Shown here: positions 1 through 3,604 of the stretch, one piece after another
Layout: each line of letters begins with the position of its first letter
Numbering within the stretch: position 1 is the first letter of the stretch
Assembly (NCBI GenBank): GCA_020428465.1
Contig: JAGQMY010000035.1
Coordinates: 1 to 60,093, forward strand
From: Candidatus Saccharimonadota bacterium
GTDB taxonomy: Bacteria; Patescibacteriota; Saccharimonadia; Saccharimonadales; SZUA-47
Direction of reading: 5' to 3'
DNA: 60,093 bases
The notes under the pieces: model-generated
The model's input: only the letters and a program-made list of their open reading frames with translations
Database searches by the model: none
Told to the model about the DNA's origin: nothing
Translations under genes and position numbers: made by a program

Positions 1-12
1 TATTTTTGACAT
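1..12 (-). CDS. Start of a leftward gene cut by the window edge
   Basis: On the minus strand an ATG lies at 12-10, followed by codons for Ser-Lys-Ile before the window ends. An AGGA about 11 bases upstream could be a ribosome binding site. It sits directly downstream of the leader and terminator at 40-151, so it is the likely target of that attenuator. Only four codons are visible, so nothing can be said about its product. Confidence 0.45.
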
Positions 13-40
13 AATATTTATTGTCCTATATTAGTTAATA

Positions 41-67
41 AAAACAAAACACCGGAGAGTTCTCCGG
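41..67 (-). terminator. Intrinsic terminator of the leader RNA
   Basis: Perfect 7-bp stem CCGGAGA/TCTCCGG (52-58 and 61-67). Read on the minus strand it is followed by GTGTTTTGTTTTT-like sequence (41-50 on the plus strand is A-rich). It lies about 40 bases before the start codon at base 12, as an attenuator would. Confidence 0.65.
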
Positions 68-94
68 CTATGATTATCAAATTAATATCAAGAA

Positions 95-151
95 TTACCG
101 AAGAACTGACTCCGGCTGTATATGTGAGTTATTAAAGCTATATATACCCAT
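95..151 (-). CDS. Putative 18-residue leader peptide
   Basis: The frame reads MGIYSFNNSHIQPESVLR and ends with TAA at 97-95. Its ATG is only 6 bases after the TATAAT box at 158-163, the same leaderless geometry used by many genes in this window, so the transcript would begin at or next to the start codon. A ribosome finishing the peptide would cover segments 1 and 2 of the leader and leave the terminator free to form. A ribosome stalled near the middle would free segment 2 to pair with segment 3. There is no run of one amino acid, so a classical amino-acid sensor is not obvious; an antibiotic- or peptide-stalling leader is possible. No function is proven. Confidence 0.45.
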   Translation of the reverse strand: MGIYSFNNSHIQPESVLR

Positions 152-157
152 CTTTTT

Positions 158-187
158 ATTATAGCACTAATGCTTATGTTTTGTCAA
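158..187 (-). promoter_or_regulatory. Consensus promoter for the leftward leader
   Basis: Minus strand: TTGACA (187-182), an 18-base spacer, then TATAAT (163-158) preceded by TGC (extended -10). This is the best sigma-70-type match seen in the window. Confidence 0.75.
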
Positions 188-224
188 TAGTGAGATTAAA
201 TCAAATATTACATCGAGAATTACT

Positions 225-232
225 GCTATAAT
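225..232 (+). promoter_or_regulatory. Extended -10 promoter of the ABC transporter operon
   Basis: TGCTATAAT ends at 232. The -35 region is weak. A GAGGGAG ribosome binding site at 244-250 precedes the ATG at 258, so this operon has a conventional leader of about 20 bases. Confidence 0.55.
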
Positions 233-257
233 AGTTTTAACAAGAGGGAGTTATTCT

Positions 258-1028
258 ATGGCAGTATCAACAAAGTCTAAAGCTAATTCAAAAAAAAGTG
301 TTAAAAAAGTTATGGCACGAATTATTAACGGAGTAAAAAAATACGGTGAAGGTGAAACGGAAGTTCGAGCACTTAACGGTATTGACGTCGAATTTCATGA
401 AGGCGAATTTGTAGCAATCATGGGTCCAAGTGGATCAGGCAAATCAACACTTCTGCATTGTGCAGCTGGTTTAGATAATTTGACTGAAGGTGAAGCCGAG
501 ATAAGTGGTGTTAAAGTTAGCAATATTAAAGACAAAAGATTAACTCTATTAAGAAGAAACAAAGTTGGATTTATTTTTCAATCATATAACCTACTACCTA
601 CGCTTAATGCAGTCGAAAACATAGAACTACCCATGGCGATTTCGGGCAAGAAAACAAATAAGCAGTGGTTTGACCAAATTATAGATGTATTAAAGATTCG
701 CGATCGATTAACGCATACACCAAACGAATTATCAGGTGGGCAACAACAGCGTGTCGCAGTAGCAAGAGCACTCATCAGTAAGCCAGATATAATATTCGCT
801 GATGAACCTAGCGGTAACCTAGATTCTAAATCAGGCAATGAGCTTCTAGGATTCTTGAGAAAAGCAGTTACAGATTACAAACAAGCAATAGTAATGGTCA
901 CACACGACCCAAGAGCAGCCTCATACGCCGATCGAGTAATATTCCTTGACGACGGCAAGATTGTAGACGAGATGCGTTCACCAACAGTCGAAAAAGTCTT
1001 AGACAGAATTAAGAAGCTCGGAGATTAA
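258..1028 (+). CDS. ABC transporter ATPase, MacB/LolD type
   Basis: This 256-residue ATPase powers a membrane permease of the MacB/FtsX class, which moves lipoproteins, peptides or antibiotics, or transmits a mechanical signal across the envelope. Visible motifs are Walker A GPSGSGKST (56-64), the Q-loop FQSYNLL (from 107), signature LSGGQQQR (158-165), Walker B with catalytic Glu (IIFADEP, 178-184) and the switch His (VTHD, His216). The ATG at 258 follows a strong GAGGGAG. A Lys-rich stretch of about 20 residues precedes the domain. The FtsX-like permease gene follows 5 bases downstream. The substrate is unknown. Confidence 0.93.
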   Translation: MAVSTKSKANSKKSVKKVMARIINGVKKYGEGETEVRALNGIDVEFHEGEFVAIMGPSGSGKSTLLHCAAGLDNLTEGEAEISGVKVSNIKDKRLTLLRRNKVGFIFQSYNLLPTLNAVENIELPMAISGKKTNKQWFDQIIDVLKIRDRLTHTPNELSGGQQQRVAVARALISKPDIIFADEPSGNLDSKSGNELLGFLRKAVTDYKQAIVMVTHDPRAASYADRVIFLDDGKIVDEMRSPTVEKVLDRIKKLGD

Positions 1029-1033
1029 TCGAC

Positions 1034-3604
1034 ATGTTTAAAGCAGCCTTAAAAAGTTTACGCACCCACAAACTAAGAATGGCCTTAACGGGCTTCGCTG
1101 TGGTGTTGGGTGTTAGTTTCGTAGCAGGAACTTATATGTTCACCGATAGTATCAGTTCAACATTTGACGGACTATTCGGAAATGTTTACGCCGGAATTGA
1201 TGTAACAGTACGACCAGCCAAAGGAGAACTGGGTCAGGTATCCACATCATTTGATGAGTCAGTCCTTCAAACGGTTAAACAAACTGAGGGAGTAGGAGTA
1301 GCAGAGCCCGGTGTTGGTGGCTTAGCTCAACCTTTAGATAAAAATGGTAAACCAGTAGGTGGTCAAGGTGCGCCGAGCTTAGGATTTTCTTGGACAAAAG
1401 ACGAATCAATGAACTCATTAAAAATCCATGACGGCGATGGTAGAGCTCCAGAAAACTCAGGAGAAATGGTAGTCGATAAAGCCACTGCTGATAAATACGA
1501 GTTTAAAATTGGCGACAAAATAACAGTTTTATTTGACTGTAGCATTCCTCAAGCAGATTTTACACTTGTCGGTATAGCGACATTCGGTTCGGCGAATAGC
1601 CTAGCTGGCGCTAATTTATCTGCATTTAATTTGGCTGATGCTCAGAAATATTTCGATATGATCGGAAAATATTCAAGTATTGATATAAAAGCGTCTGACG
1701 GCTATAACAAAGACAAGTTACTAGCAAACATAAAAGCAGCCCTACCTGAAGGGTTAGAGGCCGTAACCGGTGAGCAACAAACCAACGAACAGCTTGATGA
1801 AATTAATCAGAACCTAGGCTTTCTAAACACTGCCCTGCTTGTTTTCGCGGGAATAGCAATATTTGTAGGCTCGTTTATTATTCAAAACACTTTCAGAATT
1901 GTGGTAACCCAAAGAACGCGCGAATTAGCATTACTCCGAGCATTGGGTGCGACGAGAAATCAGGTCATGAGATTAGTCTTGTATGAGGCATTCTTTGTAG
2001 GCTTAGTTGCAGGTGCTTTGGGTATATTTGCTGGAGCAGGAATAGCCTACGGCGTAAGAGGTATGATGAACGCGCTTGGCTTTAGCTTACCTGGAGGTCC
2101 GCTAGAAATTGCTCCGAGAACTGTAATTATATCCTTGATCGTTGGTTCGGGTGTTACCGTTGTATCTTCCTTGCTACCAGCAATTAAGGCATCACGACTC
2201 GCTCCTGTAGCGGCACTTCGTGATAATCAGGCGCCTACGAAGCGAAAATCATTAGTAACCAGAGGGTTAATTGGCGCGGTACTAATATTAATCGGTGGCG
2301 GTGCTATTGTTTATGGTCTAGGTGAAAACAGGTCTAATCCACTTCCAATTGTCGGATTTGGTGTAGCAACACAGTTTATAGGAGTTTCCATGACTGCGCC
2401 ACTTCTAGCTTTGCCTATTTCAAGATTTTTTGGAATTATCCTCGCAAAACTTCGTGGAATTCCTGCAAAACTAGCTTACCGAAATGCCATTCGCACACCC
2501 CGTAGAACAGCTTCAACAGCGTCTGCATTAATGATCGGCGTTTCCTTAATCGCGATGATAGCAATAATCGCTTCAACTTTCAGAGTAGCAATAGACAAAA
2601 TAGTTAATGATAGCTTCGCAGCCGATATTATCGTGACGTCCAATAACGTTGGTGAAGGTGGGCCTAACACAGGTACATTCAGCGAGGAAGCCTATAACCG
2701 CATAAAAGGACTCAAAGAGCTTAAAGACGTATCTGCTCTACGTTATGCATTCACAGGTTATAAAGTCGACGGAGCCAGCTCATCATTTGTTCTGGCCGGT
2801 ATTAATCCAACTAATTTCGATAGCACAGTAGCGAGACTTAAACCAAGTGAAGGTACGTTTGAAAGACTCAAAATCGGTACAGTCGCTGTAAGGCAACAGG
2901 AATTAGATAAACGTGGATTACAGATCGGAGATACTGTTGATATTGAATACGCCGAAACCGGACTGAAAACATATCTTATTGTAGGAAGCTTCGAAGATGC
3001 TTTTGACTCAGACTACCTAATAAGTGCTGATGATTATATGCAGAATTTCAGCAATCATAATCTTGTAATGATAGCCGCTACCTACAATGATTCATACTCT
3101 GCCGAAACAATTAAGCAAGCTGTAGAGGGAGCCTTATCTGAATTTCCCCAGTTAAGTGTTCAAGATCAGTCTGATTTGAAACGAACAGCTAATGAACAGG
3201 TTGACCAATTAATAGCCCTACTCTGGAGTTTACTTGCTATGGCAGTCATTATCGCGGTATTCGGCATTACTAACACATTGATGCTATCAATTGCGGAGAG
3301 AACACGGGAAATTGGCATGCTACGAGCAATCGGTATGACCAGAAAACAAGTACGCCGAATGATAAGAATGGAGGCGATAATAATTGCTCTATTTGGTGCA
3401 CTCCTTGGCATTTCAGTCGGATCGTTCTTTGCCTGGGTCATTCTACGTGCATTAGAATCAGAAGGAATAAGTGGTTATGTGTTCCCTGTTGTGCAAATGA
3501 TAATTTACTTTATTTTTGCCGTTATTGCTGGTATTTTCGCAGCTTTACTTCCAGCCCGTAAAGCAGCGCGCATGGATGTCTTAAAAGCAATCTATACAGA
3601 GTAA
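1034..3604 (+). CDS. FtsX-family ABC permease with two FtsX domains
   Basis: An 856-residue membrane protein partnering the preceding ATPase. A first membrane helix (about 16-36) leads into an extracytoplasmic MacB_PCD-like domain. An FtsX core follows, holding the coupling segment TQRTRELALLRALGATR, then central membrane helices, a second extracytoplasmic domain (about 515-725), and a second FtsX core with AERTREIGMLRAIGMTR near the C-terminus. The duplicated layout fits permeases that act without a second subunit. GGAG about 10 bases before the ATG gives translation within the operon. Typical roles are export of peptides, toxins or lipoproteins; the substrate cannot be read from sequence. 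Confidence 0.9.
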   Translation: MFKAALKSLRTHKLRMALTGFAVVLGVSFVAGTYMFTDSISSTFDGLFGNVYAGIDVTVRPAKGELGQVSTSFDESVLQTVKQTEGVGVAEPGVGGLAQPLDKNGKPVGGQGAPSLGFSWTKDESMNSLKIHDGDGRAPENSGEMVVDKATADKYEFKIGDKITVLFDCSIPQADFTLVGIATFGSANSLAGANLSAFNLADAQKYFDMIGKYSSIDIKASDGYNKDKLLANIKAALPEGLEAVTGEQQTNEQLDEINQNLGFLNTALLVFAGIAIFVGSFIIQNTFRIVVTQRTRELALLRALGATRNQVMRLVLYEAFFVGLVAGALGIFAGAGIAYGVRGMMNALGFSLPGGPLEIAPRTVIISLIVGSGVTVVSSLLPAIKASRLAPVAALRDNQAPTKRKSLVTRGLIGAVLILIGGGAIVYGLGENRSNPLPIVGFGVATQFIGVSMTAPLLALPISRFFGIILAKLRGIPAKLAYRNAIRTPRRTASTASALMIGVSLIAMIAIIASTFRVAIDKIVNDSFAADIIVTSNNVGEGGPNTGTFSEEAYNRIKGLKELKDVSALRYAFTGYKVDGASSSFVLAGINPTNFDSTVARLKPSEGTFERLKIGTVAVRQQELDKRGLQIGDTVDIEYAETGLKTYLIVGSFEDAFDSDYLISADDYMQNFSNHNLVMIAATYNDSYSAETIKQAVEGALSEFPQLSVQDQSDLKRTANEQVDQLIALLWSLLAMAVIIAVFGITNTLMLSIAERTREIGMLRAIGMTRKQVRRMIRMEAIIIALFGALLGISVGSFFAWVILRALESEGISGYVFPVVQMIIYFIFAVIAGIFAALLPARKAARMDVLKAIYTE

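Follow-up and report, generated by a model that had tools for sequence, protein, structure and literature searches.

A putative histidine-sensing leader attenuator upstream of hisS in Saccharimonadia, with a candidate +1 frameshift site in hisG

Leader anatomy and the regulated gene

The left edge of the window, by which we mean the whole 60,093-nucleotide stretch of Candidatus Saccharimonadota DNA analysed here, very probably carries a transcription attenuator of the ribosome-mediated kind that responds to charged histidyl-tRNA, with hisS as its target in this genome and his operons that include hisS as its targets in relatives. The leader contains a His codon, an intrinsic terminator and an antiterminator that shares segment 3 with the terminator, and the genes downstream of it and its relatives serve the same amino acid (hisS, hisG, hisD, hisI and a hisE domain). 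The signal is taken to be histidine because a His codon stands at the regulatory spacing, relatives carry two to three such codons and the targets are hisS and histidine biosynthesis genes. This reading places amino-acid-sensing transcription attenuation in a candidate phylum whose tiny members are mostly uncultured. The whole element, from promoter to hisS ATG, occupies window positions 187-10 on the minus strand and comprises the following features.

187-182, minus strand: -35 box TTGACA, a putative promoter element by its consensus
163-158, minus strand: -10 box TATAAT, 6 nt ahead of the leader ATG
151-95, minus strand: leader open reading frame of 18 codons, MGIYSFNNSHIQPESVLR followed by a stop, with start ATG at 151-149
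124-122, minus strand: putative sensor His codon CAT, 6 nt ahead of segment 1, a spacing kept in relatives
115-110, minus strand: segment 1, CCGGAG, able to pair with segment 2 (1:2) or segment 4 (1:4)
106-98, minus strand: segment 2, GTTCTTCGG, which forms the 2:3 antiterminator pairing and is directly followed by the stop codon
68-59, minus strand: segment 3, GCCGGAGAAC, common to antiterminator 2:3 and terminator 3:4
57-51, minus strand: segment 4, CTCCGGT, of terminator 3:4, with compensatory changes in relatives
49-40, minus strand: T-rich tail of the intrinsic terminator
12-1, minus strand: start of hisS (ATGTCAAAAATA...), ATG at 12-10, the frame running on into contig C6

The -35 and -10 boxes are separated by 18 nt, as in a sigma-70-type promoter, and with the -10 box only 6 nt from ATG 151 the leader transcript is probably leaderless, starting at or next to that ATG. 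A preliminary description had proposed a leader-peptide attenuator here, and its promoter, leaderless 18-codon frame, pairing segments and T-rich tail were all found; the start codon it had put about 40 bases past the tail lies 27 nt from it. On the far side of the leader promoter, plus-strand positions 258-3604 encode an ABC transporter ATPase and a permease of the FtsX/MacB type (856 aa), oriented divergently from the leader.

From this arrangement we infer that RNA polymerase would start at the leader ATG with a ribosome trailing it through the 18-codon frame. When histidyl-tRNA is ample, the ribosome would reach the stop codon after segment 2 and cover segments 1 and 2, so that 3:4 forms and transcription terminates near base 40. 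When it is scarce, the ribosome would wait at CAT, 6 nt ahead of segment 1, leaving 2:3 to pair in place of the terminator and hisS to be transcribed. The suggestion that the signal would be something other than a simple amino acid shortage finds no support, given the single conserved His codon 6 nt from segment 1. The window's peptide has only this one His codon, a weak sensor by enterobacterial standards, and this counts against the attenuator reading.

The genome (G000) comprises 997 kb on 111 contigs, and the window makes up the left end of one of them, C1. Its positions 1-150 correspond to C6:1-150 on the opposite strand (149 of 150 bases identical), and the coding gene expected to continue from base 12 is hisS (C6:139-1443, 434 aa), opened by the window's ATG and identified by TIGR00442 (345 bits; cut-off 287). 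Contig C6 alone carries hisS together with all of the leader but its first base; the promoter and that first base come from the window only. The promoter and hisS body thus stand on two contigs joined through an overlap with one mismatch, which we counted against the reading; the mismatch, at window base 51, turns a terminator G-U pair into G-C. In one relative (G003), promoter, leader and hisS all lie on one contig. Contigs of two genomes in the genus end at the leader (window 1-150 with C6:1-150 in G000; G001:C10:1). The attenuator suggests that histidyl-tRNA supply is regulated even in a genome such as the window's own, in which a HisG search detected none.

Conservation within the family and spread across Saccharimonadia

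The same frame, spacing and segments are present in seven of the 11 genomes of the window's family (f1), so the small frame and alternative stems are both kept in relatives. The search block CAYATACAGCCGGAGTCNGT located the leader in five further family genomes, and G001, the seventh, has a copy at a contig edge. Peptide N-termini vary within the family (MVLVTFCST..., MKLFTSSSKT..., MFKPESIMT...), and the MGIYSF of the window's own peptide recurs in no relative; the C-termini are alike, with H[IM]QPxxVL plus one or two residues (HxQPxxVL). Downstream of these leaders we found hisS, hisI-hisS, an operon containing a hisG-like gene and hisD (hisD lies inside the leader-led operon of G004), hisG-hisE-hisS, or unknown genes up to hisS. 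Direct inspection upstream of hisS in about 45 relatives revealed the leader in only a few, since other genes often come before hisS, a problem that the model search got round.

A covariance model (R1) was built from six family members, with G003 kept out of training. Of 392 genomes sampled from the order, 40 matched it at E <= 0.01 (seven of the family and 33 others), the held-out G003 being recovered at E 7.5e-11; E-values come from a shortened calibration, and the searches covered metagenome assemblies sampled from the order, the class and the phylum. At least 22 of the 33 non-family matches precede a hisS of the same strand, as judged from coordinates or from the first gene, and hisS linkage was not an input of the model. 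The R1 match in G049 and pattern matches in G015, G027, G100 and G299 lay outside his operons and looked like chance. A second model (R2) found 49 genomes at <=1e-8 in the class sample, most of its training sequences among them, and its phylum search gave nothing above background outside the class (best E 4e-6, a level that background terminators also reach).

Peptides outside the family are of the type TNQHHLHILPERLG, ending in ...NQHHLHILPERLG (pattern HHxHxxPExxG, then stop), and mostly carry two to three His codons. Among 52 tabulated leaders, 45 have two to five His codons and seven have one, five of the latter being in the window's family. The last His codon falls 6 nt ahead of segment 1 in leaders with a complete 5' part, and a -10 match (<=1 mismatch) lies 4-10 nt from the leader start in 42 of 52 relatives, most commonly at 6-7 nt. 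First genes after the leaders include hisS, hisG, hisI and hisE fusions. A conserved gene with a motif around AF..PW.E.SKC also recurs in first position (L174, L145, L229, L238, L241 and others), two scanned members of which gave no Pfam match, as do M15 peptidase-like genes.

Terminator, antiterminator and protector folds

Predicted energies in the window are -7.4 kcal/mol for 1:2, -11.9 for 3:4 and -15.6 for 2:3, with -14.2 kcal/mol for 3:4 in the C6 copy. With a ribosome modelled on the His codon (segment 1 masked) and the T tail left out of the fold, 2:3 was the minimum free energy (MFE) structure in six of seven species, the exception being G006, where the terminator outcompetes 2:3 even in the His-stalled model; with the ribosome modelled on the stop codon, 3:4 formed in all seven. 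Adding the T tail moves the stalled-state MFE from 2:3 to the terminator in most species, so co-transcriptional folding order would have to decide. In nearly all species the free full-length RNA was predicted to fold as the long antiterminator, and the untranslated state may therefore be ON, unlike in trp.

Covariation was assessed on a MAFFT alignment of 22 distant leaders (A5), the close-family alignment (A3) being too conserved for any to show. The terminator had 98.1% of cells paired and the long antiterminator (1:4 + 2:3) 86%, each with 12 doubly changed cells and a covariation score that none of 500 shuffles attained. Since shuffles leave relatedness in place, we added an alignment-free arm-swap test: a leader's own arms averaged -21.5 kcal/mol against -16.9 for arms swapped between genomes (0 of 5000 permutations), and z was -4.4 with one representative per family. 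Compensatory changes thus bear out terminator 3:4 and antiterminator 2:3 of the four-segment scheme first proposed; for its 1:2 protector, the wider set of leaders outside the family gave no support by covariation. Within f1 that fold is predicted at -5.9 to -7.4 kcal/mol, making a protector plausible in the window's family.

Fusion to a TrpR-like gene

Five genomes (G039, G061, G079, G150 and G422) have a TrpR-like protein whose C-terminal tail is the His-rich leader; the three tested (G061, G079, G150) match PF01371, and G061 also matches TIGR02531. Two others (G138, G124) look similar. The leader here forms the tail of the repressor frame, so the attenuator would lie inside a regulator gene, at its 3' end.

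TrpR-like fusion loci: L201, L237, L238, L241, L243
Loci of similar appearance: L250, L236

TrpR-family HisR repressors of his genes have been described in Firmicutes (PMC9413887).

Alternative explanations and known systems

An erm-type drug-inducible leader, in which an antibiotic in the nascent-peptide tunnel stalls the ribosome and so frees the gene, would also have a peptide overlapping the hairpins, and the few residues of the MGIYSF N-terminus presumably resemble the ErmC leader. The gene that follows is hisS rather than a resistance gene, however, and it is the His codon and segments, not MGIYSF, that relatives conserve, making this explanation extremely improbable. We consider just as improbable a T-box, binding tRNA, or a metabolite riboswitch: T-boxes are known to regulate hisS in Firmicutes (PMC2965389), but no relevant Rfam family was found in window 1-400 at gathering or permissive thresholds (neither the His_leader RF00514 nor a T-box), the leader is too short and a conserved reading frame accounts for its sequence. 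An ordinary promoter with a constitutive terminator, acting as a leaky gate with no sensing and an incidental small frame, is very unlikely; a terminator alone would allow partial read-through, and R2 gives many background matches to plain terminators, yet across many families the frame, the His codons, their spacing and the antiterminator show conservation or covariation.

The attenuator reading has counterparts elsewhere. Like the enterobacterial his leader (RF00514), the element combines a short peptide containing His codons with an antiterminator, a terminator and downstream his genes, whereas it has no Rfam match, one to five His codons rather than a long run, a leaderless start, hisS often as the direct target and a 1:2 protector that lacks covariation support. 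In Bacillus, Naville and Gautheret (2010, PMC2965389) described His leader peptides for hisZ and for a hisS paralogue, likewise attenuating a hisS-family gene, although these belong to another phylum and contain a stretch of His codons, and the likeness is one of layout. His attenuators are also reported from the B. cereus group, Eubacteriales and Erysipelotrichales (PMC9413887), similarly with three to five His codons, a terminator with an antiterminator, and his operons; those are confined to Firmicutes, in contrast to the Saccharimonadia leaders with their leaderless frames and, in some families, fusion to a TrpR-like repressor gene. The open-access literature searched yielded no description of either this attenuator or the hisG site in Saccharibacteria.

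A candidate +1 frameshift in hisG

The first gene was scored open in 48 of 58 leader-led operons and split in the other 10, all of which need a +1 shift. The overlap windows of these ten span 10-43 codons, each with exactly one [C/G]TT-CA[T/C] dicodon and one His codon. A HisG search added two split hisG genes (G014 and G051), bringing the total to 12 (10 hisG and two of another gene); a generic scan for +1-joined frames across the fetched loci gave too much noise to be of use.

Split hisG loci: L146, L176, L177, L180, L186, L151, L198, L225, L245, L248
Split loci of another gene: L188, L236

A purine-rich Shine-Dalgarno (SD)-like run lies 3 nt ahead of CTT/GTT in 11 of the 12 (the hexamers ending there being GCGAGG, AAGAGG, GGGAGG, GGAAGA, AAGGAG or AGGAGG), G343 lacking one. 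Joined HisG products aligned with seven intact HisG proteins with no gap at the junction, nine of ten junctions falling in the same column, and all three joined products tested matched HisG, two with a HisE domain. The dicodon is absent from the 12,880 codons of 38 intact first genes. His makes up 0.5% of codons in those genes (68 of 12,880).

The +1 programmed frameshift of prfB (RF2) uses a purine-rich SD-like run, a 3-nt spacer, CUU and a slow UGA in the A site. The site found here shares the SD-like run, the 3-nt spacer, CUU, the +1 direction and a slow A site, but it has His CAU/CAC in place of UGA, the gene is hisG and its regulation by histidine is a proposal of ours. With moderate confidence, we suggest that part of the Saccharimonadia senses histidine twice per operon, once through the leader attenuator and again through a prfB-like +1 frameshift in hisG or another first gene. 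While the A site holds a hungry His codon, the tRNA on P-site CUU/GUU would be able to slip, giving full-length HisG when His-tRNA is scarce. Split hisG could possibly instead reflect constitutive corrective frameshifting, or pseudogenes, the latter being hard to square with one site in several families. Re-initiation was considered and rejected, as the +1 frame has no conserved start codon and two of the 12 have none near the site. No examples were known of hungry-codon frameshifting yielding trans-frame products for starvation (Atkins et al. 2016, PMC5009743), and the hisG frameshift, if true, would be a case in nature of regulation by hungry-codon frameshifting. One of the 48 first genes scored open (L224, in G192) seems to go out of frame further in.
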